The notes under the pieces: generated by a model
Databases searched by the model: none
Seen by the model: the letters and a program-made list of their open reading frames with translations, nothing else
What the model was told of the DNA's origin: nothing
Translations under genes and position numbers: made by a program
Shown: in pieces, positions 6,902-23,604 of the stretch
Position numbering within the stretch: the first letter of the stretch is position 1
Layout of the letters: each line of letters starts with the position of its first letter
From: a virus
Strand: one strand, 5' to 3'
Length of the DNA: 24,469 nucleotides
IMG/VR virus record: IMGVR_UViG_3300017917_002393
Location: 1-24,469 of that record

Positions 6902-7516
6902 TTATAAAACTTGCCAATCTAAATATTCCCTAAAATCTCCATGGCTAATAACTGTTGAATCAACCCACCAATCTTCATGATAGGATCTTTGAACTAAAGC
7001 ATAACCAAGAGAATCTAGAATTTCTCTTTGTGCATCTCTAATAGCAATATTTCTCCAATACATATTTGCATCATGTTCGAATGTAATAAGAGTAAATCTA
7101 TATGTATTTAGTGGAACTGCAATTAATCCTTGTAATGTTAAATGACTATTACCTCTTGGTCTTCCAAGATGATCATATCCAGCATCTATATCTAACTGTA
7201 AATAGTCAATTTGCTTTGGAAAATTATTCTTTTCAAAATAATCAATATAATTAAAAGAAAGAGCATCTCCCATACATGGATTTTTTCTATTACTATTAAA
7301 GCCATCTCTTAAATAATCTTCAATCTCAAAAGAAACTCCAGTCCAGTCATACTCTGTTTCTAGTAAGTAGGTATTATTACCATTATTATAATGTGCTGCA
7401 CCTAATTCTACATAGTACCCGTTTGTTTTTTTATTTAAAATATTAATAATAAACTGTTCTTGTTGTGTCATTTGATGTGGAGCAGGTTCGTTATTTGTAG
7501 AATAAATATCTATCAT
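6902..7516 (-). CDS. FkbM-like SAM-dependent methyltransferase
   Basis: A 204-residue class I methyltransferase. Motif I is 'YYVELGAAHYNNGNNT' (about 34-49), followed by an acidic strand end 'VSFEIE' (61-66) that should bind the SAM ribose. 'IDYLQLDIDAG' (103-113) corresponds to the 'DxLKIDVEG' strand of the FkbM family. That family mostly O-methylates sugars and polyketides, so a glycan or other small hydroxylated substrate is plausible. The ATG overlaps the stop of the upstream oxygenase (ATGA). It is the last gene of the long accessory operon, followed by the 6844-6883 hairpin. Substrate unknown. Confidence 0.75.
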   Translation of the reverse strand: MIDIYSTNNEPAPHQMTQQEQFIINILNKKTNGYYVELGAAHYNNGNNTYLLETEYDWTGVSFEIEDYLRDGFNSNRKNPCMGDALSFNYIDYFEKNNFPKQIDYLQLDIDAGYDHLGRPRGNSHLTLQGLIAVPLNTYRFTLITFEHDANMYWRNIAIRDAQREILDSLGYALVQRSYHEDWWVDSTVISHGDFREYLDWQVL

Positions 7517-8097
7517 TTAAATAAATCTCCTTTTAATCTAGTAGGTTCTTCTTCTGTTCCACGTATAAAAACAGTAGAGAAGTATCTTATTGTATCATCT
7601 AAAACTGGAAGAGATCCATGAAGAATATTTCCGCCATGAATATATAAAGTATTAGCCTTTGGTTTAACTATAATTCCTATTTCTGGATATTCTAATTCTC
7701 CACCTTCATAGTCATCATTATAATATAAACAAAATCCATAGCCTATATAATAGGATAAATCAGGTATCCATTGATCTCTGTGACTTTGTATGTAGTCTCC
7801 CTTTTTATATCTTTGTAGAATTAATTTTGGTGGATAGTCATAGTATGACTCAAATAAATTTTTCATTTTATCATTTATAGAATCAAAAATATTTATATCT
7901 TTAAAATATAAATTTTTACCATACCAAAAATCTGTAGTATCGTATTCTTTTTTATCTGTTGGATTAGATTTAATAGAATCATTAAACCAATCTTCTTCTT
8001 TAGAATTTTCTATTATTTTATATACTTCGGCTAACTCATTACTAGTTAAAAAATCACTTACTTCATAAACATTATCATGTAATTTATTTATCTTCAT
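7513..8097 (-). CDS. 2OG-Fe(II) oxygenase, prolyl-4-hydroxylase-like (no. 1)
   Basis: About 194 residues, a double-stranded beta-helix dioxygenase that couples oxidation of 2-oxoglutarate to hydroxylation of a substrate. The iron triad is 'SHRDQ' (H106, D108) and 'LHGS' (H160); R171 of 'IRYFS' is the expected 2-oxoglutarate anchor. 'YYNDDYEGGELEYP' is the family hallmark between them. I chose ATG 8097 rather than the in-frame ATG at 8127. The longer form would overlap the upstream SDR by 23 nt, while 8097 lies just after that gene's stop, begins 'MKINKLHDNVYEV', and has a weak GTAGG upstream. The 3' end overlaps the methyltransferase start. Substrate unknown. Confidence 0.9.
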   Translation of the reverse strand: MKINKLHDNVYEVSDFLTSNELAEVYKIIENSKEEDWFNDSIKSNPTDKKEYDTTDFWYGKNLYFKDINIFDSINDKMKNLFESYYDYPPKLILQRYKKGDYIQSHRDQWIPDLSYYIGYGFCLYYNDDYEGGELEYPEIGIIVKPKANTLYIHGGNILHGSLPVLDDTIRYFSTVFIRGTEEEPTRLKGDLFK

Positions 8098-8104
8098 TTT
8101 ATAC

Positions 8105-8773
8105 CTACATATACTTGCTATTTGCAATATGACTTATTTCTAAGTGATTAATATTTACATATTTAGGTAATGATGCTACCCACCTAATTGATTCAGCCAT
8201 GTCCTCTGCTGATAAAGCATTGTCTTTTTTTTCTACCTGAGTGTCTATAGTACCAGGACATATTTCTGTAACCTTGATTCCATATTCTGGAAATTCCATC
8301 CTCATAGTGTCAATCAATGCCATCTCTCCTCTTTTAGCATTGCTATAATTACCGCCACCTCTAAATGGTATTTTTCCACATAAAGATGTTATAAAAATAA
8401 TTGTAGGTGATTCTGATTTTTTCATACATGGAACTAATAATTGTGAGAGATACATTGGTCCAGAAACATTTATATCATATGCTCTTCTAAAATTGTCCAT
8501 TGTTTCATTAATAATAAATGTTGGACCTGAGCCACCACCTGCATTATTTACAAGTAAATCCAATGTAATATCTTTATATTTTTCAAAGAATTTCTTTATG
8601 TCTTCTTCTACTGTTATATCTAATTGATATACTTCTACATTATCAGAAACTAACTCAGAAACTTTTCGAAGATCTCTTGACACAGCAATAACTTTATATC
8701 CATTTTCAGACAGCAGTTTTACTGTTGCATAACCAACACCCTTGCTTGCTCCAGTCACTATTGCTGTTTTCAT
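8105..8773 (-). CDS. Short-chain dehydrogenase/reductase (SDR)
   Basis: A 222-residue classical SDR. The Rossmann glycine motif 'TGASKGVG' spans 7-14 and 'NNAG' 76-79. The catalytic tetrad is complete: N102, S130 ('ITSLCG'), Y143 and K147 ('YSNAK'). 'CPGTIDT' follows at about 172. No Arg stands directly after the second glycine position, and cofactor preference cannot be decided by eye. It should interconvert a hydroxyl and a carbonyl, and it sits between two oxygenases with 4-base ATGA coupling upstream. It might further oxidise a hydroxylated product, which is inference. It is slightly shorter than the usual 250 residues at the C-terminus. Confidence 0.9.
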   Translation of the reverse strand: MKTAIVTGASKGVGYATVKLLSENGYKVIAVSRDLRKVSELVSDNVEVYQLDITVEEDIKKFFEKYKDITLDLLVNNAGGGSGPTFIINETMDNFRRAYDINVSGPMYLSQLLVPCMKKSESPTIIFITSLCGKIPFRGGGNYSNAKRGEMALIDTMRMEFPEYGIKVTEICPGTIDTQVEKKDNALSAEDMAESIRWVASLPKYVNINHLEISHIANSKYM

Positions 8774-9609
8774 AAATTTAATTCTGATATTTCTTTCTTA
8801 TAATAGTCTTCAAATGGCATATAAAATTGAATATTATTTATTATTGTCAAATTCTTAGGATCTCTATTAAATGACATTCTTTCTTTTTCCATTTTGTTCC
8901 AAATGTCTTCTCCATATTTTTCTTTTAATTTAATCCAAAGATGGTGTCCTTCATAATTATATTTCCAATAGGTTCTGATTATATACTTTTCACCTTTAGT
9001 AACTGCACGTACACCATGATAATGTGGATGCCCAGACATAAAAACAACAATATCTCCAGCATTTGGTTTATAGATATAATCTTCTTTAACTATGTTTACA
9101 TCATTATCATCTAAAAATCTAAACATAACCTCTCCACCATCATAGTTATCATTTAAATAAAAAACAGCAGTAATACCAAATTTTTCCCCTGGTTCATAGG
9201 CAATGTCTCTTTGAAAATCAGTATGATGCATCATTGCATATTCGTCATCTGGATGCTCTGTATATTTTGCTACATTCCATCCTCGATATATCCAATTGTT
9301 TAAAGATATATTATTTTCTTCGGCATAAAGTTTTGTAGTTTTATAAAATAAATTATTAATTTTATTTTCTAAACTGTTATCTAAAATATTTGAACCATTA
9401 ACATCTATTTTATTTGCCCATTCAATTTCTGTAGGAAAACTATTAAATTCATATTTAAAAAAAGTTGCTGATGCCATTGTTCCAAAAGTGTACCAATCTG
9501 TCCACTCTTTATTATTTACTAAATAGTTAATAACATCTTGATTTTCTTTTAAAGCATTTTTAAAAACCCATACTGTTTTATGAATTTTTTCTACTTCAAA
9601 TTGATTCAT
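8770..9609 (-). CDS. 2OG-Fe(II) oxygenase, prolyl-4-hydroxylase-like (no. 2)
   Basis: A 279-residue oxygenase. Iron ligands are H129 and D131 in 'HHTDF' and H198 in 'HYHGV'; K208 in 'EKYIIRTYW' occupies the 2-oxoglutarate-binding position. The core carries 'YLNDNYDGGEVMF'. It has an N-terminal extension of about 110 residues and a C-terminal tail of about 60 residues, like oxygenase no. 6 (11741-12646), with which it shares 'MM(H/Y)H(T/S)D' and 'KF(G/T)IT'. The two are likely paralogues. Its start overlaps the upstream stop (TAATG) and its end overlaps the SDR start. Confidence 0.9.
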   Translation of the reverse strand: MNQFEVEKIHKTVWVFKNALKENQDVINYLVNNKEWTDWYTFGTMASATFFKYEFNSFPTEIEWANKIDVNGSNILDNSLENKINNLFYKTTKLYAEENNISLNNWIYRGWNVAKYTEHPDDEYAMMHHTDFQRDIAYEPGEKFGITAVFYLNDNYDGGEVMFRFLDDNDVNIVKEDYIYKPNAGDIVVFMSGHPHYHGVRAVTKGEKYIIRTYWKYNYEGHHLWIKLKEKYGEDIWNKMEKERMSFNRDPKNLTIINNIQFYMPFEDYYKKEISELNL

Positions 9610-10337
9610 TACATACCACTATTATTTAAATTCATATTGTTATGAATCCAATGACCTGGAATCATATACTTTACACCAGATTTAACTGTATGTGCAGTAT
9701 GAAAGTATGGAGCAGATGCAGGAAAGATAATAACACTATTTGCTTTTGGCTTTACTCCAAAATCAATTGCATTATTTGCAACAGCATCACTATAATCTAG
9801 ATTAACTGGTGGTGCTCCATGAACCCAACCATCTTTACTGTTCCAACCACCGTTATAGTCTTTTAACTGAAAAGATATTTCTCCGCCTTCGCAATCATCA
9901 TTTAAATACATGACAAGCGAATACCTTAAAGTCTGGTCTCCATCTAATTGATCGAAGTGTGCACCCATTGCCATTCCAGTATAATATTTTTTAATATTAA
10001 ATACTGGAAATAATCTTGGTTCATCAAAATCTCCCATTGCTTCTGCATAATCTTTACAAACATTATAAAAAGTAGTCATTACTGCATCGTAAATATAATT
10101 ACTTTTTTCTGCTACATCTTCATAAAACTTTGAGATTGCGCTAGGGTCAAATGTCTTTGTTTCTCCGTATATAAAATCTTGATCATTTGACGATGTCCAT
10201 TTTTGCCAAACATTTACATTTGAAATAGGATCTGATTTCATTGACTCTAAATCATTTAAAGTTGACATAAAAATATCAAAGTTTTCTATAGCATCTGTGT
10301 AATAATAAACTTTTGGATCTAGTATTTCTCTATTCAT
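9609..10337 (-). CDS. 2OG-Fe(II) oxygenase, prolyl-4-hydroxylase-like (no. 3)
   Basis: A 242-residue oxygenase with H127 and D129 in 'AHFDQ', distal H213 in 'YFHTAH' and K223 in 'VKYMIPGHW' as 2-oxoglutarate anchor. 'YLNDDCEGGEISF' is the usual core signature, with Cys in place of the common Tyr. Between strands it has a roughly 30-residue insertion rich in Gly, Trp and Asn (about 160-190, 'YNGGWNSKDGWVHG') not seen in its neighbours, which could shape a larger substrate pocket. The start codon overlaps the upstream stop (TAATG), with AAGGA about 10 bases upstream. Confidence 0.88.
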   Translation of the reverse strand: MNREILDPKVYYYTDAIENFDIFMSTLNDLESMKSDPISNVNVWQKWTSSNDQDFIYGETKTFDPSAISKFYEDVAEKSNYIYDAVMTTFYNVCKDYAEAMGDFDEPRLFPVFNIKKYYTGMAMGAHFDQLDGDQTLRYSLVMYLNDDCEGGEISFQLKDYNGGWNSKDGWVHGAPPVNLDYSDAVANNAIDFGVKPKANSVIIFPASAPYFHTAHTVKSGVKYMIPGHWIHNNMNLNNSGM

Positions 10338-10996
10338 TAATATTTATTCCTTTCATAGTGGCCTCTCTCTTTAACAAAACCAACAACTACATATCTTATT
10401 GGACCGTCTCCAACATGTCTTACTCCATGAGTATGCTTTTCATCTCCTGGAAAAAATAACAAATCTCCTGGTTTTGGACGTAAAGAAATATCTAAATTAC
10501 TAAAAAATAATTCACCGTCAACATAGTCATCATTAATATATATTATTGTTGCATATTGAATTGATGGATCAGTATGTTGGTCAGTATGTGCTTTTAACTC
10601 TACACCACTTTGCATTCTTTGAATAGTAGCAAGACCACTAAGCATAAGACCTGGAAAACTACTTTCTACAATTTTAGATAATCTATTATAAAAAACTCTT
10701 TGTTCTTTATGTTCTTTTACATTTAAATTTTTATCTTTCCAGTTTTGAGTAATTTCAAATTTACCTTCAGCAACAAGATTTTCTACATCGTCTCTACCAA
10801 ATTTTTCCATACAAAAGTTTTTTAGATTACTAGTATATTCTATTTCCCAGTCTTCTTGAGATGCACTATTGATAACTCTTAATAAAAAGTCCATATCTTC
10901 TTTTGTTAAAAAATCTTTAATCCAAAGAATTTCATCAGTTACTTCTTCAAACACAAGATTATTTTCTTTTAGTTGTTGCTTAAATAAATCAATCAT
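10337..10996 (-). CDS. 2OG-Fe(II) oxygenase, prolyl-4-hydroxylase-like (no. 4)
   Basis: About 219 residues. H137 and D139 in 'AHTDQ', H190 in 'THGV' and R201 in 'IRYVVVGF' complete the active site; 'YINDDYVDGELFF' is the core. The frame extends to a GTG at 11008, but the ATG at 10996 is preferred. AGGTG lies nine bases before it, while the GTG has only a badly placed AAGG. It overlaps the last codons of the upstream oxygenase by 8 nt. It is one of the more compact members, with a short C-terminus. Confidence 0.88.
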   Translation of the reverse strand: MIDLFKQQLKENNLVFEEVTDEILWIKDFLTKEDMDFLLRVINSASQEDWEIEYTSNLKNFCMEKFGRDDVENLVAEGKFEITQNWKDKNLNVKEHKEQRVFYNRLSKIVESSFPGLMLSGLATIQRMQSGVELKAHTDQHTDPSIQYATIIYINDDYVDGELFFSNLDISLRPKPGDLLFFPGDEKHTHGVRHVGDGPIRYVVVGFVKERGHYERNKY

Positions 10997-11744
10997 GTGG
11001 AATTTCACCTACCTTGTATCTATTTCCGTCAATATCTATCTTATATCCTTCTTTTAATAAATCTTGCCATTCTGCTTTTTCTTTTGCTTGATATGCTCTT
11101 GTTTCTTCCATTTCTTTGGCCCAAGCATCTCTTAGTTCTTGTGGATATGCATCTTCTTCTCTATCATCCCAAAAAGAACCAATGGTATATCTAACACCTT
11201 TAGTAATTAATGTTACTTCATGCATGTTGTTAAATCCCCCGTCAAATGCTGCAAGCATACCTACTTCTGGAGATATTGAGATATCATTTGATGGGAATTG
11301 CAAAAGCCCTCCGTCAAAATCATCATTTAAATATAAAAATGCAGCATATCTACTTCTTGTAAATGCGCCAGACTTTCCTTTTTCATCAGTGTTATCTGAA
11401 TGAAGTCTAGCAAATGCTCCTGGTTCCCATTTTTGAGTATGATAGCCTATTTGACTAACTATCGCTGGATCTATATCGTGTACAGATGCTACAGCATTGA
11501 TAATTGCATTTTTTATATCTGAAAAAATTGTTGGAGATAGTCCTTCTTCAATGACAATTTCATCGTCATCCTGTGGCAAGACTGATGAATAAGATTCATA
11601 AAAAGATATGGGTGTCCAAGTTAGTTTGCCCTCATCTGCATGTCTATCTAAAACCTTAATTAATTTTTTTGCAGTATCCGCATCTATAAAATTTTTATAC
11701 AACACTATATCTTTTGTTAATCTATTTTTGTTTTCTAGGTTCAT
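10989..11744 (-). CDS. 2OG-Fe(II) oxygenase, prolyl-4-hydroxylase-like (no. 5)
   Basis: A 251-residue oxygenase: H115 and D117 in 'LHSDN', H175 in 'NMHEV', R185 in 'VRYTIGSFW'. The core 'YLNDDFDGGLLQFP' replaces the usual Glu after GG with Leu. The C-terminal tail of about 55 residues is charged and helical (Lys/Glu/Ala-rich). The start overlaps the upstream stop (ATGA), with GGAG 10 bases before it. Order and overlap place it in the middle of the nine-gene operon running from 13401 down to 6902. Confidence 0.88.
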   Translation of the reverse strand: MNLENKNRLTKDIVLYKNFIDADTAKKLIKVLDRHADEGKLTWTPISFYESYSSVLPQDDDEIVIEEGLSPTIFSDIKNAIINAVASVHDIDPAIVSQIGYHTQKWEPGAFARLHSDNTDEKGKSGAFTRSRYAAFLYLNDDFDGGLLQFPSNDISISPEVGMLAAFDGGFNNMHEVTLITKGVRYTIGSFWDDREEDAYPQELRDAWAKEMEETRAYQAKEKAEWQDLLKEGYKIDIDGNRYKVGEIPHD

Positions 11745-12646
11745 GATATTCTAACTCCATTCTCTATTTCAAGTCTTTGTGGATAATCTTTTCTAAAATT
11801 TTCCATAATTTCATCTTGCATAGAAAGCCAAGTATCTTTGCCAAATTCATTTTCTTTGTCAAACCATTCCTGATCACCTTCACTATATCTTTGCCAATAC
11901 ATTCTGGCAAAATACTTATGTTCATTTTTTGGTTCAACTACTGAATGCAAATATACATCTCCATCACTTGTTAGTACTTCTGGATGTCCAGATGGAAATA
12001 CTAGAAAATCACCAGCCTTTGGCTTATACTTAAAAAGTTTACCATTTACTGCAAAATCAATTTCTCCATTTTCATAGTCATCATTGATGTAGGCTAAAAC
12101 CGTTATTGTAAATTTATAGCCTGGACTTACAAGAGGTTCTCTTATATAGTCTGAATGGTACATCATTGCTCTTTTATGTTGATCTATATTTGGATCTATT
12201 AATTTAGTATCTTTATGATATCTACAAATTGAAACCCCATGCGGTCTCCACCTTAATAGTTTTTGTCCTTTTTCATCTCTAACTTCTGTTTGTTCATTAA
12301 TATCAAATTTAAGTTCATCGGACATTCTTTTTACATAATCTTCACTTACTTCATAGAATCCAGTTATAAGTTCCTTTAAGAAATCTTTTTGAATTTGTTG
12401 TAGTGGAGTTTTTGCATCTATTTCTTCTAATTCTCTTAAATCAAGACTTGATGTAAGATGTGGTGCTGCTGGATTTAAATAATCTCCAAATCTAGACCAT
12501 TGTGTCCATTCAGTAAAAAATCTATCTTCATTATTAGTTGTTGATTCTTTTAATATTTCATAATTTTTTTGTGGATCTGCAAAGAAGTTTCTGTACACAA
12601 AAATCCTTGGATATATCTCTATTACTTCAACTGAATCATTAATCAT
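11741..12646 (-). CDS. 2OG-Fe(II) oxygenase, prolyl-4-hydroxylase-like (no. 6)
   Basis: About 301 residues, the longest of the group. H164 and D166 in 'YHSDY', H234 in 'YLHSV' and K244 in 'HKYFARMYW' are the active-site residues; 'YINDDYENGEIDF' is the core. A roughly 12-residue insertion ('EVLTSDGDVY') precedes the distal His. Paralogue of no. 2 by architecture and by the 'MMYHSD...KFTIT' pattern. The frame is open to a TTG at 12676, but ATG 12646, two bases after the upstream stop, is the natural start ('MINDSVEVIEIYPRIFVY' aligns with the N-termini of relatives). Confidence 0.88.
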   Translation of the reverse strand: MINDSVEVIEIYPRIFVYRNFFADPQKNYEILKESTTNNEDRFFTEWTQWSRFGDYLNPAAPHLTSSLDLRELEEIDAKTPLQQIQKDFLKELITGFYEVSEDYVKRMSDELKFDINEQTEVRDEKGQKLLRWRPHGVSICRYHKDTKLIDPNIDQHKRAMMYHSDYIREPLVSPGYKFTITVLAYINDDYENGEIDFAVNGKLFKYKPKAGDFLVFPSGHPEVLTSDGDVYLHSVVEPKNEHKYFARMYWQRYSEGDQEWFDKENEFGKDTWLSMQDEIMENFRKDYPQRLEIENGVRIS

Positions 12647-12648
12647 TT

Positions 12649-13401
12649 TTATTTTATCCCCCTTTTTGGATCCCAAGTACTAATCTCTTCTTGAGTTAAA
12701 AAAATTCTATGATATTCTTTATTTGGATCTGGTTTAATTTCTCCAGTATGTTCTAATATTTCCCAAAAAAATGGACATGTAAATCTAGTAGAATTTTGAA
12801 TTTCTGTCACACCATGAACATAATTCATATCACCTGGGAAAAAATATGCAGCACCTTTCTTAGGTTTAAACTGTATTCCTTGATTTGGAAAGTACAATTC
12901 TCCACCCTCATAGTCTTCATTAATATAAAACAAACTTGCAATATCATAATTAGGAAAATCATTTGGCAATCCAGCATCTGGTCCGTCATGTAGTTCTTTA
13001 TCTGCATGTGGACTTTGATATTGCCCTGGATTCCATTTTACAATTGTCTGGCCTGTTGGTCTAACCTTAACCTTAAAAAAGTCTTCAATAATAGGCTGTA
13101 ATTTATTAACCAACCCAACTATTACAGGAACAATTCTAGGATCATTTTGATTTAAAGATGGAGCACTACAAACTCTGTCTTTCCAATAGTCTGCATCATA
13201 CACCACTGTTCCATTTTCATTAACATGGCTTTGTGTTACATCCCAAATTTTAAGATTTCTTGCTGCATTATCTAAAAAATTTAATTCTTCTTCGCTCATA
13301 AAATTTTCTAGTTCAACAATGTTTTCTGATCCACTGCCAAAAAATCCAGACGGAGTAATAGATGGATGTCTAATTACCTCAATTGCGTCTTCTGGTATCA
13401 T
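12649..13401 (-). CDS. 2OG-Fe(II) oxygenase, prolyl-4-hydroxylase-like (no. 7)
   Basis: A 250-residue oxygenase: H132 and D134 in 'PHADK', H196 in 'VHGV', R206 in 'TRFTCPFFW'; core 'YINEDYEGGELYFP'. The N-terminus includes 'FMSEEELNFL', the helix that opens many P4H domains. It is the first gene of the long operon. No ribosome site precedes the ATG. An extended -10 ends six bases before it, so the transcript should start at or next to the A of the ATG (leaderless). Confidence 0.9.
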   Translation of the reverse strand: MIPEDAIEVIRHPSITPSGFFGSGSENIVELENFMSEEELNFLDNAARNLKIWDVTQSHVNENGTVVYDADYWKDRVCSAPSLNQNDPRIVPVIVGLVNKLQPIIEDFFKVKVRPTGQTIVKWNPGQYQSPHADKELHDGPDAGLPNDFPNYDIASLFYINEDYEGGELYFPNQGIQFKPKKGAAYFFPGDMNYVHGVTEIQNSTRFTCPFFWEILEHTGEIKPDPNKEYHRIFLTQEEISTWDPKRGIK

Positions 13402-13407
13402 ATTAAT

Positions 13408-13416
13408 ATTATATCA
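13408..13416 (-). promoter_or_regulatory. Extended -10 promoter for the nine-gene oxygenase operon (leaderless)
   Basis: Minus strand reads TGA TATAAT. The TGA is also the stop codon of the upstream gene (13414-13416). The last T is at 13408, so initiation 7 nt downstream falls exactly on the A of ATG 13401. No ribosome site and no good -35 are present. Confidence 0.6.
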
Positions 13417-14121
13417 CTTTCCTGTATTATCATTTACAAATAATTTAAGAGTTTTGACCTCATGAGAACCTCGAGATTCATTCTTTTCATTTACTGCATC
13501 TCTGTACCAGTCTGTCCATTTTCCAGCAGAATTAATAACTTGCGCTGCTTCTCCATATGACTTATTTGCTTCTTGCCTCAAACCCATATTATCTTTATAA
13601 TCAAATATTTCTATAGATGTATTATTGAGATTAGTTAAAGAAATAGGAAATATGGTTGCCACTGGAGTTCCAGCCTCAATTATTATTGTCTTATTTGCTT
13701 TTTTTGCTTTAAGGGCTAATGGCAAAGGATTGTCATAAAATGATGTACTAATCAAACTTGCCATTGTTTCAAATTCATCACTAAAATAATTAACTGGATT
13801 AATTGTCAAAAGACTTACATCTTTATCTGTTCTAAAGATTAATCCAGTATGAAAACTAATGGAAGACTGACCTCTACCAGAATATGATCCTGGTGGGCTA
13901 GAGATTTTTACATGTGTATCTGTTTGATCATTTACTCCATCCCATATAAATTCAATGTCTTGGGTACAGGACAGATTCCATCCAATAACATTTGCTTGCG
14001 TTACTGGAAAACATCTATATGCATGGTTTTCAGATGTTTCGTCCATCCAATCTCTTTTTATAGACATAGGACTGATAGTAAAAAGAGATCCCTGCATTTT
14101 TTCAACAGATATATTAAACAT
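13414..14121 (-). CDS. DUF6065-like protein
   Basis: A 235-residue protein resembling the DUF6065 family as I recall it: 'RDWMD' (23-27), 'AYRCFPVTQANVIGWNL' (34-50), a 'WDG' (60-62), 'FRTDKDVSLLTINPVNYF' around 96-113, and 'EAGTPVATIFPI' around 149-160. Function is unknown to me; the beta-rich pattern suggests a cupin-like or jelly-roll fold, which is inference. It is probably a distant relative of 14812-15591, which has the parallel blocks 'NPMNRFDLPF' and 'PAGTPYLQILPF'. ATG 14121 overlaps the stop of the preceding oxygenase (TAATG), pointing to coupled expression and a shared pathway. Confidence 0.6.
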   Translation of the reverse strand: MFNISVEKMQGSLFTISPMSIKRDWMDETSENHAYRCFPVTQANVIGWNLSCTQDIEFIWDGVNDQTDTHVKISSPPGSYSGRGQSSISFHTGLIFRTDKDVSLLTINPVNYFSDEFETMASLISTSFYDNPLPLALKAKKANKTIIIEAGTPVATIFPISLTNLNNTSIEIFDYKDNMGLRQEANKSYGEAAQVINSAGKWTDWYRDAVNEKNESRGSHEVKTLKLFVNDNTGK

Positions 14122-14804
14122 TATTCATTTTCCCACTTTGGATCATACATTTCTTGTGTATGAAACTTTTTACTATAATCTAGCATAGTAACAATTGAAT
14201 ATTTTGTACCAGAATGAACTGGCATTGCTTGATGAGGATACATATAATTTGATGGAAATACATATAGATCTCCTGCCTTTGGCTTTATATTTAGATCCTG
14301 AAGTCTAAAATATAGTTCTCCACCATCATAGTCATCATTAACATATGCTACTAAAGAAACTGTACAGTTGTAAGAATATCCATGATCGTGATGCTCCATA
14401 AAGTGTTGACCTGGACCATACTTAATAAAATTAAAGGCTTCCCAGTATTTTAAATTCATAATATTAAAGTCTCGTCTATAGTCTTCAACTGCTGGAAATT
14501 GTGCATCGTATACATCTTGCCAAATTCCTTGCAGCAGCACTGAATCTTCAGACTTATCTGCTTCAATGTCCGTCTTTTTAAACTTAAAGTCATAGCAATC
14601 ACGATAATCTGGCATTAGTTGTTGATAACCAACATATGCTGGATACCAGTGATACCTTTTACCATCAGGTGATGCTTCTCCATACCCTGCTGGCTCTCCT
14701 AGAATATTTTCTAATCTTTCTATAATATTTAATTCTGGCTTAATAACATTTCTGTAACAAACAATACCGTTACCAAGATTTTCTTTTTCTGTCCAAGTAT
14801 TCAT
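14121..14804 (-). CDS. 2OG-Fe(II) oxygenase, prolyl-4-hydroxylase-like (no. 8)
   Basis: A 227-residue oxygenase. H138 and D140 in 'EHHDHG', H191 in 'YPHQA' and K201 in 'TKYSIVTM' form the active site; core 'YVNDDYDGGELYF'. 'WEAFNFIKYGPGQHF' just before the HxD and 'GDLYVFPSNYMYPH' are almost the same in oxygenase no. 9 (15588-16307), so the two are close paralogues. The residue at the anchor position is Lys in both. AGGA lies five bases before ATG 14804, in the 7-nt gap after the upstream stop. Confidence 0.9.
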   Translation of the reverse strand: MNTWTEKENLGNGIVCYRNVIKPELNIIERLENILGEPAGYGEASPDGKRYHWYPAYVGYQQLMPDYRDCYDFKFKKTDIEADKSEDSVLLQGIWQDVYDAQFPAVEDYRRDFNIMNLKYWEAFNFIKYGPGQHFMEHHDHGYSYNCTVSLVAYVNDDYDGGELYFRLQDLNIKPKAGDLYVFPSNYMYPHQAMPVHSGTKYSIVTMLDYSKKFHTQEMYDPKWENE

Positions 14805-14811
14805 TTATATC

Positions 14812-15591
14812 CTATCTGTATTCTCTTCTAGTCCAAACTTTACTCTTATAAACTCCACCATCTGGTTGTCTATAAAAATTTGCGTTCTTTACTATATTAT
14901 CATATATTTTAGATTGATCTAAAATATCAATATTGTGTTCCCAATTTTCTCTTTTGAATGGAAGAATTTGTAGATATGGCGTTCCAGCAGGGATAGTTCC
15001 CTCCCAACCTTCAGCAATAAAAAATGGAAAACTTCCAAGCAAATGAACCTTATCTGAATCAACAATTCCAGTTGTATTCATAAACGGAAGATCAAAGCGA
15101 TTCATGGGGTTCATAAAAAGTGCACTATAGCCTTCTGGTAATGCCATACCCCAATCTGGCATCCATGCAAAATGATCTTTATAGAATCCTTTTGGATGTT
15201 CAAATTGTGGCATTGCTGGTCTTGCAGTACAAAAATCCTTATACATTGAATCATTTATTTTTAAATCTAGTGATCCCCTACTATTCTTAGTAAAGGTAAT
15301 ATCACATGGTGTCTTAAATAAATATCCAGTTATAAAGGCATCCAATATTGCTGGACATGCTTTCCATGTTGGAATCATTCCATAATCATCAGTTGTTCCT
15401 TCTTTAGGAAAAGGACAAATTTCTCTTGTTGCTTTATAATATTCTCCAGTTACTGGATTTTTGGCAAATCTATCTGCCTCCTTATACCATTGAGGCATTG
15501 ATGATTGTGTTGGAACTGGAACAGATATACTTTTAAGATTTAGCCATGGCCTATTTGATTTAAAAGATATGACATTATACTCTTCACTCAT
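14812..15591 (-). CDS. Uncharacterised protein, probable relative of the DUF6065-like family
   Basis: A 259-residue protein without a familiar catalytic motif. It has 'MPQWYKEADRF' (33-43), 'CPAILDAFITGYLFKTPCDI' (79-98), 'PEGYSALFMNPMNRFDLPF' near 152-170, 'GIVDSD' and 'IPAGTPYLQILPFKRENW' near 201-218. The same block order (C..A...GY.F.TP, then NP.N..., then AGTP...IPF) occurs in weaker form in 13414-14121. I recall similar proteins in marine phages, always uncharacterised. Its start overlaps the stop of oxygenase no. 9 (ATGA). The alternation with oxygenases suggests that it acts on or carries the same substrate, but no activity can be read from the sequence. Confidence 0.6.
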   Translation of the reverse strand: MSEEYNVISFKSNRPWLNLKSISVPVPTQSSMPQWYKEADRFAKNPVTGEYYKATREICPFPKEGTTDDYGMIPTWKACPAILDAFITGYLFKTPCDITFTKNSRGSLDLKINDSMYKDFCTARPAMPQFEHPKGFYKDHFAWMPDWGMALPEGYSALFMNPMNRFDLPFMNTTGIVDSDKVHLLGSFPFFIAEGWEGTIPAGTPYLQILPFKRENWEHNIDILDQSKIYDNIVKNANFYRQPDGGVYKSKVWTRREYR

Positions 15592-16307
15592 TGTTTATGA
15601 CCTAATTCGTTAATATCTGTCATAATAACTACGCAATATTTTGTACCGCTTTTCATTGGAAGAGATGCATGTTCATAAATATAATTAGATGGGAAGATTG
15701 CAATATCTCCAACTCTAGGCTTATGAACATATCCATCTAATCTTGGGAATTGTATCTCTCCACCTTCATAATCATCATTAATATAAATAACTGCTGACAC
15801 TGTTGTATTGTATGCTGGACCATGATCTGCGTGAATATTAAAGTGTTTTCCTTCACCTTCATATTTTACAAAATTAAAAGCCTCATAATAAACTACATGA
15901 ATTCCCCAGTATCTTGCATAATCATCTATACAAAATTTTAATTTTTGATAAATCTCTTCATGTAAATCAATAAGTTCGGCATTAGTCTCATTTCTTGGGC
16001 CAAGATTTTCTTGTTTATATTTAAAATCAACACAATCTCTTGCCTTTTTAATTGGAGATTCAGAGTTTGTAACTTTAGCCTCAGACCACTTATAACGCTT
16101 AGTACCATCTAAATTTGACTCTAATATATTAATATATCTATTAGCATCTTCTAGTGAAAAAACATTTCTGTAAATATTCAATCCTAGTCCTGGATTTTCT
16201 ACTATGATATTATTTTGAATTTCTTTTGGTTGCATTCTATTTAATGCTGTTTCTGAACGATCTTTATATAGCCAAGCATCTTGTGGATCTTGATATAGAT
16301 TTTCCAT
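15588..16307 (-). CDS. 2OG-Fe(II) oxygenase, prolyl-4-hydroxylase-like (no. 9)
   Basis: About 239 residues. H159 and D161 in 'IHADHG', H213 in 'YEHASL', K223 in 'TKYCVVIM'; core 'YINDDYEGGEIQFP'. Close paralogue of no. 8. The frame continues upstream to an ATG at 16454, which would add a hydrophobic segment resembling a membrane anchor. That part overlaps the divergent promoter and the opposite-strand monooxygenase gene. The ATG at 16307 has a good AGGAG five bases upstream and an extended -10 behind it, so I take 16307. First gene of the four-gene 2OG-DUF-2OG-DUF operon. Confidence 0.9.
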   Translation of the reverse strand: MENLYQDPQDAWLYKDRSETALNRMQPKEIQNNIIVENPGLGLNIYRNVFSLEDANRYINILESNLDGTKRYKWSEAKVTNSESPIKKARDCVDFKYKQENLGPRNETNAELIDLHEEIYQKLKFCIDDYARYWGIHVVYYEAFNFVKYEGEGKHFNIHADHGPAYNTTVSAVIYINDDYEGGEIQFPRLDGYVHKPRVGDIAIFPSNYIYEHASLPMKSGTKYCVVIMTDINELGHKQ

Positions 16308-16331
16308 GTTATCTCCTAAACACTCCCTTCC

Positions 16332-16340
16332 ATTATAGCA
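16332..16340 (-). promoter_or_regulatory. Extended -10 promoter, leftward, for the 16307 to 13414 operon
   Basis: Minus strand reads TGC TATAAT (16340-16332), a consensus extended -10. Predicted start is near 16325, giving an 18-nt leader with AGGAG. It lies four bases from the rightward promoter. Confidence 0.65.
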
Positions 16341-16344
16341 TAGA

Positions 16345-16353
16345 TGATATAAT
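16345..16353 (+). promoter_or_regulatory. Extended -10 promoter, rightward, for the monooxygenase-sulfotransferase cassette
   Basis: Plus strand reads TGA TATAAT. Predicted start is near 16360, about 16 nt before ATG 16376. Divergent and back to back with the leftward element at 16332-16340, so one polymerase should exclude the other. Confidence 0.6.
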
Positions 16354-16375
16354 AATAGTAGGTTATAAAAATTAA

Positions 16376-17383
16376 ATGATAGCAATGAGAAAAATGAAAA
16401 AACTACAAATAGAGTGGATGTTCGAAAGAAGTCACAAGTTTCCTGAAGATGCAAAATTATTGCAAATACTAGACAATAACTTTACATCTATCCTAATACG
16501 AACTGCATCATTTTTCCCTGATCCATGGACAATTGCTCAGGACTATTTATCTATTACAAAAAATTTAAAGTTTATTATTGCTGTAAATCCCGCTAGTATT
16601 CATCCTGTTTTTTGTGCAATTAAAATATCTACCCTACAAAAAAAATATGGAGATAGAATATCTATTAATTTAGTTTCTGGTGCAAGCACTGTTGAACAAT
16701 CTATATATAGCGATAATATAAAAATAGAATCTAGATATCGTAGAACAGCAGAGTATGCTGAAATTATAAAAAAATTAGTTATAGATGGAAGAATAGATAG
16801 TTTTAATGGAGAGTTTTATAATTTAAATGATGTAGATATTTTACAGGGAATGGACTTTGAATTAGTTTTTGCTGGTTCTTCTGATGATACAATAAATCTT
16901 GCAAATAATTTTGGATCATGCCACTACTATTCAATGGAAACTTTAGAACAATATCAAAAAAATAGAGATAAAATTATAGTAGAATCTGCTATTAAAACTA
17001 CTATTATTGTAGATAAGGATAGTCAAAAAGCATGGGGCTTTGCGGATAGTTTATTAGAAAATGTTACAGAATTATCTTTATTAGAATTAAAAAAAGATTT
17101 ATCTAGTCATGAGTCTCAAAATCAAAAACGTCAGCAACGACTGCATAACTTCTCTAAAGAAAATTTAAAAGTAGATAAAAATATTTGGTCTGGAATGGGG
17201 CTATTAAGAGGTGGTGGAATTACAGCAATGGTTGGAGATTTTAATGAAGTTGCAAATCTTATAGAAGAGTTTTATAATTCTGGACTTAATAGAATTTTGA
17301 TTGGTGGAAGTCCAGAACATATTTATATTGAAAATTTTGTAAATGGTGTTATTCCTATACTTCAGGATAAAAATATATTATGA
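16376..17383 (+). CDS. LLM-class flavin-dependent monooxygenase, SsuD (alkanesulfonate monooxygenase)-like
   Basis: About 335 residues with the bacterial luciferase-like TIM-barrel pattern. The SsuD-like features are 'LKFIIAVNPASIHPVF' (64-79), 'GDRISINLVSGAS' (92-104), 'ESRYRRTAEYAEIIKKL' (118-134) and, near the end, 'GMGLLRGGGITAMVGDF' (273-289) with R278 at the position of the SsuD loop Arg. SsuD uses FMNH2 and O2 to cleave alkanesulfonates to an aldehyde and sulfite; related LLM enzymes act on other substrates, so the substrate is open. A reduced flavin must come from a host reductase, as no reductase gene is adjacent. Several in-frame ATGs (16376, 16385, 16394) are possible starts; none has a strong ribosome site. 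The stop overlaps the next ATG (ATGA). Confidence 0.8.
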   Translation: MIAMRKMKKLQIEWMFERSHKFPEDAKLLQILDNNFTSILIRTASFFPDPWTIAQDYLSITKNLKFIIAVNPASIHPVFCAIKISTLQKKYGDRISINLVSGASTVEQSIYSDNIKIESRYRRTAEYAEIIKKLVIDGRIDSFNGEFYNLNDVDILQGMDFELVFAGSSDDTINLANNFGSCHYYSMETLEQYQKNRDKIIVESAIKTTIIVDKDSQKAWGFADSLLENVTELSLLELKKDLSSHESQNQKRQQRLHNFSKENLKVDKNIWSGMGLLRGGGITAMVGDFNEVANLIEEFYNSGLNRILIGGSPEHIYIENFVNGVIPILQDKNIL

Positions 17384-18144
17384 TGTATAACTCTTTTTTT
17401 TATTTGCATATTCCCAGAACAGGTGGAACTCATTTTAGAGAAAATGTTTTAGAAAATATTAAACCACTACTAATAAATAAAAATATTTCAATATACGATA
17501 CATCCGACGATAAAACTGCACATTGGTGTTGGTACAAACCTTATATTACTGATTCTTCTTATATTTATGCATCTTTAAGAGATCCAGTTTCTAGACTTAT
17601 TAGTCAGTTTTGTCATCAAGCATCTAATGCTATCAAATATACAAATACACCATACAATATATCTGATATTAATAAAGATATGTTTTATAAATGGATTGAA
17701 GACGGATATTTAAAATATAAAAATGTACAATCTAAGAGTTTTGTTTATTACAATCAAAACCATAACATATATAAATCAGCCAAAAATTTAAGATGGAATA
17801 CCTCAGATGTGCCAAAACTTGATCATTTTATGTTTGACCAGGATTTTATTAATTATAATTTTGATATAAAAGATGTATTTAAAAATATTAATAAAATTAA
17901 TTTTATATCAAAATCTGAAGATATGAAAGATGGAGCAATCCAAGAAAAAATTATAAACTATATCATTAAAGATTTAGGAATTAATTACCAATATAGTATA
18001 AGTTTAAACAAAAACAATAATTATAATCTAGAAATTACATCTAAATTAATAGATACCTTTTCTAAAAAAGAACTTCAGAGCCTATATGAATATCAAAACA
18101 TAGACTCTGAAGTTTACTTTTCTAATATATTTACAAAGTATTAA
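17380..18144 (+). CDS. PAPS-dependent sulfotransferase-like protein
   Basis: A 254-residue protein. 'LHIPRTGGTHF' (9-19) is the 5'-phosphosulfate-binding loop, and 'ASLRDPVSRLISQF' (64-77), with R67 and S71, is the 3'-phosphate-binding motif of the sulfotransferase family that includes heparan-sulfate 2-O-type enzymes. These enzymes transfer sulfate from PAPS to sugar or other hydroxyls. The C-terminal half is Lys/Asn/Ile-rich and the gene is noticeably more AT-rich than its neighbours. It is coupled to the monooxygenase by an ATGA overlap and meets the opposing methyltransferase gene tail to tail, sharing four bases. Confidence 0.75.
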   Translation: MMYNSFFYLHIPRTGGTHFRENVLENIKPLLINKNISIYDTSDDKTAHWCWYKPYITDSSYIYASLRDPVSRLISQFCHQASNAIKYTNTPYNISDINKDMFYKWIEDGYLKYKNVQSKSFVYYNQNHNIYKSAKNLRWNTSDVPKLDHFMFDQDFINYNFDIKDVFKNINKINFISKSEDMKDGAIQEKIINYIIKDLGINYQYSISLNKNNNYNLEITSKLIDTFSKKELQSLYEYQNIDSEVYFSNIFTKY

Positions 18145-18800
18145 TCGTGTACCTTATATATTACAAGTTCTGCATAATCATATATTGGTGCTTTGTCTAA
18201 ATATCTTCTTACATCATAGGTATCTTCAAATAAAAATACTAAATATGAATTAGTGTTTCTAATTATTTCCCAATTTTTATTCATAAATTGATCAAATATT
18301 GTTTTTTGAAATGGAAAATAAAAATAATAAACACAATCTTTATTTTCTACAACATAATCTAATGCATTTACATTTATAAAATTAACATCTTTTGTTATAG
18401 GCAAATTAAATGTAGATAAATTTTTAACTGCTATATCATGAAAAACAGGATCTGCTTCAACTCCAGCATAGTCTTTGTATGGTGCATCTTTTATTAAATT
18501 ATAAAATAATACTCTTCCTTTTCCACTTCCAATATCTATAAATGTGCAATTTTCAATACCAGGTTGTTTTGATAATTCTTCATTAACCATGTCTACATAC
18601 TCTAATGCTGATGCTTCATATTCATTTGATCCAACAATAGGAATTGAGTTAGCAATTCCTCCAGGTCTCATAGCACCACTACCATCGGCTGTTGGTGCAA
18701 GAGTACCCTTTGTGTCTATGTTGTACTTACTATCAAATTCATCATACTGAAGACAGTCTGCTCGTCTTATTCTTCTAATTACGTCTGGATTTTTTAACAT
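18141..18800 (-). CDS. Class I SAM-dependent methyltransferase
   Basis: A 219-residue protein. Motif I 'FIDIGSGKGRVLFY' (87-100) and 'YAGVEADP' (111-118), with E115 as ribose-binding acid, define a Rossmann methyltransferase. 'VNALDY' follows and 'YFYFPF' stands at the motif IV position. The layout ('GSGKGRV' then 'GVE.DP..H..A..NL') resembles DOT1-like and small-molecule methyltransferases; no substrate can be named. A strong AGGAGG is five bases before ATG 18800 and an extended -10 lies just upstream. It is transcribed towards the convergent plus-strand cassette. Confidence 0.8.
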   Translation of the reverse strand: MLKNPDVIRRIRRADCLQYDEFDSKYNIDTKGTLAPTADGSGAMRPGGIANSIPIVGSNEYEASALEYVDMVNEELSKQPGIENCTFIDIGSGKGRVLFYNLIKDAPYKDYAGVEADPVFHDIAVKNLSTFNLPITKDVNFINVNALDYVVENKDCVYYFYFPFQKTIFDQFMNKNWEIIRNTNSYLVFLFEDTYDVRRYLDKAPIYDYAELVIYKVHD

Positions 18801-18818
18801 AATATCCTCCTATGGTAT

Positions 18819-18827
18819 ATTCTATCA
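18819..18827 (-). promoter_or_regulatory. Extended -10 promoter for the methyltransferase gene
   Basis: Minus strand reads TGA TAGAAT in the 30-base gap 18801-18830. The predicted start near 18812 gives a 12-nt leader made almost entirely of the ribosome site AGGAGG plus spacer. Confidence 0.5.
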
Positions 18828-18830
18828 CGT

Positions 18831-19424
18831 CTATTTAGGATTATTTTCTAATAAATTATTAAATATTAAGTCTATAATAATGTGAACTCTTTCTGTATCT
18901 GTAGGATTATCTACAGAATGTGGAAGGGAGTTATTAATATCATACCACTTTCCTACTTCCATATTTAATGAATGATTTAATACTGTAAACATAATATCTT
19001 TATTAGTTATTAATGGCACATGTATTCTTCTTCCTAAATATAAAAATTCTCCACTATCTATATGTGGTGGTATATGACTATTCGCATGCATCTTAACAAT
19101 TTCGCATCTTACCACTTTTGCATCGTAAATATACTCTAGGTGTTTATATAAATTATTCATAACTAGTTGCGACTCTGGATCCTTTAAAGAGTTAATATCT
19201 TCTGATAGATTACCCTGTCCAACTTCCCACCAATAGTCCATAAACCTTAATTGAAACATTTCGGTATCTTTATGAGTTGCAAGTTTGTCTTGTCTAGATG
19301 TGTCTAGTTTCCATTCTTCATCAAAATTAACAACTTCATCGATTAATTTATCTAAAGAAAATGGTATATCTCCTACAACAAATTGCCAAGTAGTGTCTTT
19401 ACTTTTTACTTCTGACGTAATCAT
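18831..19424 (-). CDS. Aspartyl/asparaginyl beta-hydroxylase-like 2OG-Fe(II) oxygenase (no. 10)
   Basis: A 197-residue protein from a different oxygenase subgroup. 'HIPPHIDSGEF' (117-127) holds H121 and D123, 'LPHSVDN' (167-173) holds H169, and R179 in 'ERVHIIIDL' is the 2-oxoglutarate anchor. 'GRRIHVPL' (131-138) and 'GKWYDINNSLPH' are typical of the AspH-like family, which hydroxylates Asp/Asn side chains in proteins or small peptidyl substrates. Its start lies 26 nt inside the upstream sulfotransferase gene, so the two are probably translated together. Confidence 0.85.
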   Translation of the reverse strand: MITSEVKSKDTTWQFVVGDIPFSLDKLIDEVVNFDEEWKLDTSRQDKLATHKDTEMFQLRFMDYWWEVGQGNLSEDINSLKDPESQLVMNNLYKHLEYIYDAKVVRCEIVKMHANSHIPPHIDSGEFLYLGRRIHVPLITNKDIMFTVLNHSLNMEVGKWYDINNSLPHSVDNPTDTERVHIIIDLIFNNLLENNPK

Positions 19425-20085
19425 ATATTTCCATATCTAAACTATTTAATTCTTCAATCTTGTTTTTTATTCTATCTGGAATAGCCATTTTTCTAAAATT
19501 TTCATTTAACTGATTTCTATTTGAAAATGAGTAAAATCCATAAGTTTTATAAACAAGTTCATTTAAATTACTAATAAACTTGTCATGATTTTCTAAAGTA
19601 TCTAGTAAATACATAGAGTCAAGTAGTGACTTGACCTCTGACATATTAATATCTCCGTCTTCTAAACACCAACCATCTAGTGCTCTTAGTGTTCCATGAT
19701 CTTTAGAATTATATAATTGTTCATTTAATGGCTTATTGAGACTTCTTGCTTGTAAATTATGCTGTACTGGATTTTCCATCCACTGCTCTAATTGTGCATC
19801 TAAGTGAGCACCTTTATAAGATCTATGCATATAAATAAAATTACTAATAAATCTATCTACAGGATCACGAACTAAACATATTGTAATTAAATCATTTCTA
19901 TATTTTAATGGAGTAGTTCCAAAGTGCCCTGATATAAATTTTTTATCAGTAAAAGTTTCTGGAAATACCTCGCCATGATTTGTAGCAAAGAATGGTATTT
20001 TCTTTGCTCTCAAATCATTAACAATGTGCGACTTTATATATATTCCAGAACATCTTGGAATATGTAAGTGGTTTATAGTGTCCAA
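19399..20085 (-). CDS. PAPS-dependent sulfotransferase-like protein (second copy)
   Basis: A 228-residue protein. 'LHIPRCSG' (7-14) matches the 5'-PAPS loop and 'CLVRDPVDRFISNF' (70-83) the 3'-phosphate motif. It is a distant relative of the plus-strand enzyme at 17380-18144. The start codon appears to be TTG at 20085, placed directly after the stop of the Hint protein. No ATG precedes the essential binding loop, so TTG is needed. AAGGGA lies about 10 bases upstream. Translation may depend on ribosomes finishing the upstream gene. Confidence 0.72.
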   Translation of the reverse strand: MDTINHLHIPRCSGIYIKSHIVNDLRAKKIPFFATNHGEVFPETFTDKKFISGHFGTTPLKYRNDLITICLVRDPVDRFISNFIYMHRSYKGAHLDAQLEQWMENPVQHNLQARSLNKPLNEQLYNSKDHGTLRALDGWCLEDGDINMSEVKSLLDSMYLLDTLENHDKFISNLNELVYKTYGFYSFSNRNQLNENFRKMAIPDRIKNKIEELNSLDMEIYDYVRSKK

Positions 20086-20094
20086 CTAGTTGGA
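20081..20094. repeat. 14-bp perfect palindrome at a stop/start junction, with a 9-bp direct repeat
   Basis: TCCAACTAGTTGGA is its own reverse complement and covers the stop of the Hint protein and the TTG start of the sulfotransferase. CTAGTTGGA recurs at 20102-20110, 16 bases away. It could be an operator or hairpin, or it may be chance. Confidence 0.5.
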
Positions 20095-23163: not shown

Positions 23164-23604
23164 TTATACTCCGCCACCGTCAAGTACTAGGGATCTACTT
23201 GCCAATGCCTCTATTGCAGCATCAACAAAGGCTGTTGTTGCTACTTGTGTTGTGTTTGTACCTAATGCTGCAGTTGGAGCAGTAGGAATACCAGTTAAAT
23301 CTGGAGATGCCAAAGGTGCCTTCAATGCAAGGGCATTTGTAATAGTAGATGCATAGTTTGCATCATCTCCGATGGCTGCTGCTAGTTCATTCAATGTGTC
23401 AAGTAGTCCAGGAGCACCATCAATTAAATCTGTTAGGGCTTCGTTATCTGAGAAATATGAAAGATTTGCCCAACGATTGCTACCATCACCAATTTTAAAT
23501 TTATTTGTATCTATTTCAAAACCAATTTCACCTGCTGCGAGTATTGGGTTAGCAGATGTCCATGTTGAGGCAGTTCCTCTGCGTTGTTGCATTCTTGTTG
23601 CCAT
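23164..23604 (-). CDS. Short tail fibre-type protein sharing the N-terminal domain of the longer fibre
   Basis: A 146-residue protein. Residues 1-51 ('MATRMQQRRGTAS', 'LAAGEIGFEIDTNKFKIGDG', 'LSYF') closely match those of the 549-residue fibre. The rest contains 'APGLLDTLNELAAAIGDDANY' and 'TQVATTAFVDAAI', phrases widely found in phage fibre shafts. It lacks the long repeats and tip, so it may be a connector, or a fibre gene shortened by recombination. It ends 'LVLDGGGV'. AAGGAG precedes ATG 23604 by six bases. Confidence 0.8.
   Translation of the reverse strand: MATRMQQRRGTASTWTSANPILAAGEIGFEIDTNKFKIGDGSNRWANLSYFSDNEALTDLIDGAPGLLDTLNELAAAIGDDANYASTITNALALKAPLASPDLTGIPTAPTAALGTNTTQVATTAFVDAAIEALASRSLVLDGGGV

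Follow-up and report, generated by a model that had tools for sequence, protein, structure and literature searches.

The window analysed here, a linear IMG/VR virus record of 24,469 bases (IMGVR_UViG_3300017917_002393), carries an ordered block of nine prolyl 4-hydroxylase (P4H)-like 2-oxoglutarate (2OG)-Fe(II) oxygenase genes. This cassette lies between nrdJ, which encodes a class II ribonucleotide reductase (RNR), and the gene of a tail-region protein with a long tract of FFP and FFPP units. We consider it probable that the system encoded by this phage hydroxylates its own tail-repeat protein at proline. Repeat and enzymes are linked statistically; the roles of the repeat as direct substrate and of proline as target residue, and the presence of the protein in the virion, are inferred.

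The association was found by comparing 92 loci that contain both nrdJ and the repeat gene. Six to nine oxygenase genes lie between the two in 20 of the 21 loci with FFP repeats versus none of the 71 others; when the comparison was repeated with unique NrdJ only, the cassette was present in 20 of 21 FFP loci and in none of the 51 loci whose repeats are of other types (Fisher p 7e-17). Loci with FSPF repeats instead encode one or two small oxygenases (~170-200 amino acids) in the interval separating nrdJ from the gene that follows it (40 of the 42 in which this region is visible). With unique NrdJ, a small oxygenase occurs in 24 of 26 FSPF loci versus 2 of 16 other non-FFP loci (p 2e-7), and none of 12 FFP loci has one beyond nrdJ. 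The 170-amino-acid type linked to FSPF repeats forms a separate clade. Loci with proline-free GGFYH repeats have no oxygenases, and those with GAF repeats, which are phenylalanine-rich and proline-poor, are mostly without enzymes.

The oxygenase cassette and its repeat protein

From high to low coordinates, the window encodes three tail-fibre-like proteins, the repeat protein and a variable insert, followed on the minus strand by the cassette and nrdJ in the order given below, and then by a 1243-amino-acid protein with weak lectin similarity.

20086..21438, minus strand: protein with FnIII domain (fn3, E 7e-11), (FFP,FFPP)n repeat and putative Hint domain, the proposed substrate; matches virion proteins of phrog_31 and phrog_38766
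20605..20814, minus strand: phenylalanine-proline (F/P) repeat tract of that protein, residues 209-278 (PPFFPFFPPFFPPFFP...), nearly all FFP and FFPP units
20131..20598, minus strand: its putative Hint (intein-like) C-terminal domain, C281 to SHN436 (PF14890 below cut-off, and motif reading)
15588..16454 as listed, likely start near 16307, minus strand: ox9, P4H-like 2OG oxygenase, the first enzyme past the repeat gene in most relatives
14812..15591, minus strand: D65b, DUF6065/phrog_7084, dUTPase-like fold (PHROGs, model)
14121..14804, minus strand: ox8, P4H-like 2OG oxygenase, sister of ox9 (PF13640, tree)
13414..14121, minus strand: D65a, DUF6065 (phrog_7084; PF19541, E 9e-32)
12649..13401, minus strand: ox7, P4H-like 2OG oxygenase (PF13640, prolyl-hydroxylase fold in model)
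11741..12676, minus strand: ox6, P4H-like, sister of ox2, optional in relatives (PF13640, tree)
10989..11744, minus strand: ox5, P4H-like (PF13640)
10337..11008, minus strand: ox4, P4H-like (PF13640)
9609..10337, minus strand: ox3, P4H-like (PF13640)
8770..9609, minus strand: ox2, P4H-like, rare in relatives (PF13640)
8105..8773, minus strand: SDR oxidoreductase, frequent cassette member (PF00106, E 9e-42)
7513..8127, minus strand: ox1, P4H-like, rare in relatives (PF13640)
6902..7516, minus strand: putative FkbM-like methyltransferase, optional cassette member (motif reading; orthologues beside the cassette)
4775..6811, minus strand: nrdJ, class II RNR, the downstream border of the cassette in relatives

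Together with an AspH-like gene in the variable insert, the window holds ten intact minus-strand open reading frames for 2OG-Fe(II) oxygenases, nine matching PF13640 and one PF05118, which confirms the nine P4H-like enzymes and one AspH-like enzyme reported in a first-pass annotation of this DNA. In the protein scan the PF13640 E-values range from 5.1e-05 to 3.3e-15; seven of the nine are above the Pfam cut-off, and ox1 and ox6 are slightly below it, ox1 reaching it in the DNA search. All nine P4H-like enzymes match phrog_61 ('2OG-Fe(II) oxygenase') or related PHROGs. Three PHROGs labelled DNA endonuclease, endonuclease V and ferrochelatase (2297, 274 and 3531) match plain 2OG oxygenase domains here, and these labels look wrong, or reflect members that are fused or mixed. 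For ox1, ox6 and ox9, the true starts probably lie downstream of the listed TTG codons.

All nine P4H-like enzymes have the HxD...H iron triad and a basic 2OG anchor (K/R), as do 100% of their orthologues (3-22 aligned sequences per oxygenase). Median dN/dS is 0.025-0.17 for every cassette gene, indicating strong purifying selection. The low dN/dS and the kept catalytic residues rule out decaying copies, as had been claimed from the triad and anchor. Pairwise identity among the nine enzymes is mostly 17-31%, reaching 44% only for ox8 and ox9. In a tree that includes cyanophage enzymes, each of the nine families forms its own orthologue clade, with ox8/ox9 and ox2/ox6 as sister pairs and the deeper branches unresolved.

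A scan with nrdJ recovered 80 related loci (84-97% identical), in about 20 of which the cassette genes are collinear, in the order ox9-D65b-ox8-D65a-ox7-(ox6)-ox5-ox4-ox3-(ox2)-SDR-(ox1)-(methyltransferase)-nrdJ, where brackets mark optional genes. The genes are therefore not scattered independently in relatives, a possibility against which the first-pass annotation had asked its locus to be checked. The core, ox9-D65b-ox8-D65a-ox7, is constant; the SDR, methyltransferase and sulfotransferase genes are optional. The same gene order and catalytic residues recur across many independent contigs, and the cassette is therefore not a chance assembly.

By sequence, the nearest solved proteins are Bacillus anthracis P4H, PBCV-1 vCPH, an algal P4H, collagen P4H and prolyl 3-hydroxylase (P3H), and the lysyl hydroxylase LH3. 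The sole oxygenase modelled, ox7 (pLDDT 89.7), is shown by its predicted structure to have the double-stranded beta-helix fold of protein prolyl hydroxylases: the top Foldseek matches are vCPH (E 5e-11) and the algal P4H, and structural comparison gave Z 16.8 with PHD2 (root-mean-square deviation (r.m.s.d.) 2.9 over 163), Z 16.4 with P3H1 and Z ~16 with Pseudomonas putida P4H and vCPH. The confident model of D65b has a dUTPase-like fold, a moderate match (Z 9.8, r.m.s.d. 2.6 over 120 of 259 residues), and a sequence search of the PDB with this protein gave no match. In haloviruses (haloarchaeal tailed viruses), DUF6065 homologues are flanked by class II RNR on one side and tail genes on the other; literature searches on DUF6065 returned nothing relevant.

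The repeat gene lies between the tail-fibre genes and the cassette. Within its F/P tract the proline codons vary (CCA/CCT/CCG), and the tract is not of the collagen-like Gly-X-Y kind. The C-terminal domain contains Cys281 and SHN436 and gives a weak match to Intein_splicing (PF14890; E 4e-6, 27.1 bits versus a cut-off of 35.8); in several relatives (e.g. L032, L051, L067) it is swapped for a Cys-rich tail. Cassette-bearing relatives have a homologue with a like FFP/FFPP tract, the longer copies reaching 16-17% proline, and cassette-free relatives have FSPFGVFG, GAFGAF, GGFYHG or FTPYS repeats instead. The low-complexity repeats of this tail-region gene, seen in L011, L022, L039 and L063, are exchangeable, a rapidly swapped module.

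Repeat tracts and enzymes beyond the window

On the supported branches of an NrdJ tree there are at least six changes of the FFP state; the best tree has ten. The cassette moves with the FFP state in 5.5 of 6 pairs, and never in the opposite direction; FSPF repeats and the small enzyme are concordant in 5.4 of 6 pairs. These tests show repeated joint switching, not one shared origin.

The pairing was also approached from the repeat, by scanning the 2.9 million viral contigs of IMG/VR with a degenerate DNA pattern for FFPPFFPFFP and without using enzyme information, which yielded at least 120 stretches. Among the matches listed, a 2OG gene lies downstream of the tract in 83 of the 94 loci that have 1 kb or more of downstream sequence, and within 4 kb in 75 of 79 with at least 3 kb, usually with ox9 first. 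The 11 loci lacking a local 2OG gene include eight in records of at least 18 kb, seven of which carry 6-13 PF13640 genes elsewhere, and in several records both tract and cassette are present though not adjacent. In 84,980 bacterial and archaeal genomes (257 Gb) the pattern occurs in seven places. One was recognised as a genuine long tract, on a 5.3-kb contig in a Chitinophagaceae bin (L300) that also carries ox9, ox8, DUF6065, ox7 and ox6 and is probably a phage fragment.

A 114-kb record (L165, G050) has 13 PF13640 genes and a 1561-amino-acid protein with several FFPP blocks. A further 2OG family of ~205 amino acids is encoded beside a second FSPF-repeat protein in L210, L212, L253, L277 and L280, and is lacking at the like loci L211 and L243; this is possibly a third pairing.

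Flanking genes and host

The variable insert between the repeat gene and ox9 consists of sulfotransferase, AspH-like and methyltransferase genes and, on the plus strand, genes for a putative sulfotransferase and a luciferase-like enzyme.

19399..20085, minus strand: sulfotransferase ST2, adjoining the repeat gene (PF03567, E 6e-6)
18831..19424, minus strand: AspH-like 2OG oxygenase, variable insert (PF05118, E 1.6e-12, 48 bits versus a cut-off of 22.6)
18141..18800, minus strand: putative methyltransferase (weak PF02390, below cut-off)
17380..18144, plus strand: putative sulfotransferase (motif reading)
16376..17383, plus strand: luciferase-like monooxygenase, variable insert (PF00296, E 1e-28; same insert in L152)

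The first-pass annotation had placed an SDR, a flavin monooxygenase, two methyltransferases and two sulfotransferases among the oxygenases. The SDR and the luciferase-like (flavin) monooxygenase are borne out by Pfam; neither methyltransferase reaches the Pfam cut-off, and the FkbM-like one has no Pfam or PHROG match. As to the sulfotransferases, Pfam supports ST2 alone, which lies past the end of the block as first drawn; the assignment of 17380..18144 comes from motif reading, and Pfam and PHROG scans gave no family match. The AspH-like gene and ST2 recur beside the repeat gene in L152, L181, L194 and L284. As a pair (18831-20085) they stand there mainly where the repeat gene resembles the Hint type (L152, L181, L194). 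Two of the tail-fibre-like proteins (21469-23118 and 23164-23604) have Mtd_N (major tropism determinant) N-terminal domains.

A megablast of the window against phage records gave no match, and the phage has no close named relative. It shares nrdJ, at 62.7% identity, with Actinomycetia phage DSL-LC01 from a Chinese lake, in which no PF13640 gene is present. Given this likeness and the presence of WhiB, an actinobacterial marker, in all seven tested related contigs of at least 85 kb, the host is probably a member of the Actinobacteria; the habitat is perhaps freshwater.

Proposed modification, alternatives and known systems

We propose that the block is a phage-encoded protein-modification module. 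The P4H-like enzymes (ox9, ox8 and ox7 as the core, with ox5, ox4 and ox3, and optionally ox6, ox2 and ox1) would hydroxylate the prolines of the FFP/FFPP tract either ahead of assembly or while it proceeds, consuming 2-oxoglutarate and O2 and requiring Fe(II). The number of enzymes might be explained by the variety of proline contexts and of possible hydroxylation positions; as a guess, the enzymes would divide among them the contexts (FFP|F, FFP|P, PP|F), the positions C3 and C4 or the addition of a second hydroxyl group. Very hydrophobic as it is, the tract could conceivably become soluble and extended on hydroxylation, as a polyproline-II-like fibre or an adhesive segment, and the SDR, sulfotransferase and AspH-like genes may, speculatively, add further modification such as sulfation. 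This proposal agrees well with the earlier suggestion that a diversified set of enzymes acts on a single polymer. The polymer is most likely protein, namely the F/P repeat, which the first-pass annotation had overlooked along with the two interleaved DUF6065 genes. A bolder version is tentative and rather doubtful: an F-P polymer tail fibre with a nine-enzyme line, each enzyme reading one proline context, in which repeat and enzyme set co-evolve as a code that other repeat types can replace as a unit.

Several points weigh against proline hydroxylation of the repeat. The repeat classes were set post hoc, with the data already seen, and the NrdJ tree tests alone are borderline (median p 0.03-0.06) because few branches are well supported. 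With related loci and a cassette that adjoins the repeat gene, linkage could explain some of the association. Two loci with FTPYS repeats (L019, L063) lack a local enzyme, and in a 38-kb fragment (G048) an FFPP tract stands with no PF13640 gene anywhere in the record. Nine enzymes exceed the needs of simple proline hydroxylation, PF13640 enzymes also use free amino acids and other substrates, and no P4H was documented on F-F-P contexts in this analysis. The DUF6065 genes, always interleaved, are left unexplained by the hydroxylation model.

Linkage could in principle account for the whole pattern, if repeat gene and cassette are functionally uncoupled neighbours that travel together in a modular tail-region island. 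Phage tail regions do recombine as blocks, and the two are adjacent in most loci. We give this explanation little credence: the FSPF-linked enzyme lies beyond nrdJ yet tracks the repeat, tract and cassette coexist in several records without being adjacent, and the NrdJ tree shows about ten changes of their joint state. The enzymes may also act on the repeat protein at phenylalanine, at other residues, or at both F and P, through beta-hydroxylation, dihydroxylation or crosslinking. That nine divergent families accompany a two-letter repeat, that AspH-like and DUF6065 genes accompany the modules, and that 2OG enzymes are capable of ring closure, desaturation and beta-hydroxylation all favour such chemistry; it seems distinctly unlikely, as the nearest relatives hydroxylate protein proline or lysine, and the F-rich, proline-poor GAF and proline-free GGFYH repeats mostly occur without enzymes.

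Other readings direct the enzymes away from the repeat. The cassette might make or decorate a glycan or small molecule, such as a host envelope polysaccharide or a secondary metabolite, with the repeat type marking the host or receptor met. Clusters of 2OG enzymes in cyanophages have been so interpreted (PMC7824862), and such pathways typically include SDR, methyltransferase and sulfotransferase genes like those of the window, but in relatives these genes are optional and ox9-D65b-ox8-D65a-ox7 is constant, and no glycosyltransferase or sugar-nucleotide gene was found among the window genes scanned. This reading, which we regard as unlikely, also leaves unexplained why the 2OG clade paired with FSPF repeats is a different one and why proline-free repeats have no such partner. 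Least credible of the alternatives, and very improbable, is modification of nucleotides or phage DNA by TET/JBP- or AlkB-like enzymes acting with nrdJ and the dUTPase-fold DUF6065. It would accord with the position of the cassette beside nrdJ, with the dUTPase-like model and the halovirus homologues near class II RNR, and with a weak Tet_JBP similarity of ox7 (E 7e-5). However, Tet_JBP (PF12851) stays below cut-off in every oxygenase (best 22.5 bits versus 34.9), the neighbours in fold and sequence are protein hydroxylases, many relatives keep nrdJ without the cassette, and the proline-repeat coupling is given no reason.

Hydroxylation of the tail repeat would have parallels. PBCV-1 vCPH (PDB 5C5T), the top structural match of ox7, is likewise a virus-encoded P4H fold, and acts on proline-rich repeats; it is a single enzyme of a eukaryotic virus with no dedicated cassette, whereas here nine enzymes of a bacteriophage face a different repeat. 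vCPH has been characterised with peptide substrates (Eriksson et al. 1999, as cited in PMC9301287 and PMC7019647), and an analysis cited in PMC7019647 is described there as not having detected hydroxyproline in PBCV-1 particles. The P4Hs of algal and plant extensins and the P4H and P3H of animal collagen share the P4H fold and long proline repeats of a structural protein, but theirs is a secretory-pathway modification of Ser-Pro or Gly-X-Y repeats, and the tract here is F/P only. The Bacillus anthracis P4H (5HV0/3ITQ) is a bacterial enzyme near in sequence and fold, but a single cellular one whose substrates are collagen-like proteins or EF-Tu.

Viral P4Hs and large phage 2OG repertoires are already known (PMC9301287, PMC7019647, PMC9602691, PMC7824862). 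The density of oxygenases, on which the first-pass annotation had leaned, is a weaker argument than it appeared: 24 2OG oxygenase genes are reported in cyanophage S-SCSM1 (PMC9602691) and several cyanophages have 7-13 PF13640 matches per genome, ruling out the count itself as a novelty. Those phages likewise carry many divergent PF13640 genes, but theirs are scattered over the genome with no described link to a virion repeat protein. The present phage stands out in having a single ordered block linked to a single repeat protein. The literature searched contained no report of a multi-enzyme module that is coupled to a virion repeat and in which repeat type and enzyme type are exchanged together, and searches for hydroxylated phage tail proteins gave nothing relevant; the repeat-enzyme pairing appears to be new.

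In aquatic phages, 2OG-Fe(II) oxygenase genes rank with the commonest auxiliary genes. The viral use of prolyl 4-hydroxylase 'remains cryptic' (PMC9301287), and the functions of phage 2OG oxygenases have not been specifically investigated (PMC9602691). The pairing described here points to a specific candidate substrate: instead of acting on host metabolism, the enzymes would modify the repeat protein in the phage's own tail region. Were this so, a bacteriophage would have hydroxyproline in a structural protein as well as an unusual polymer of repeats, and materials and enzyme work would gain many natural prolyl hydroxylases, possibly differing in site preference.

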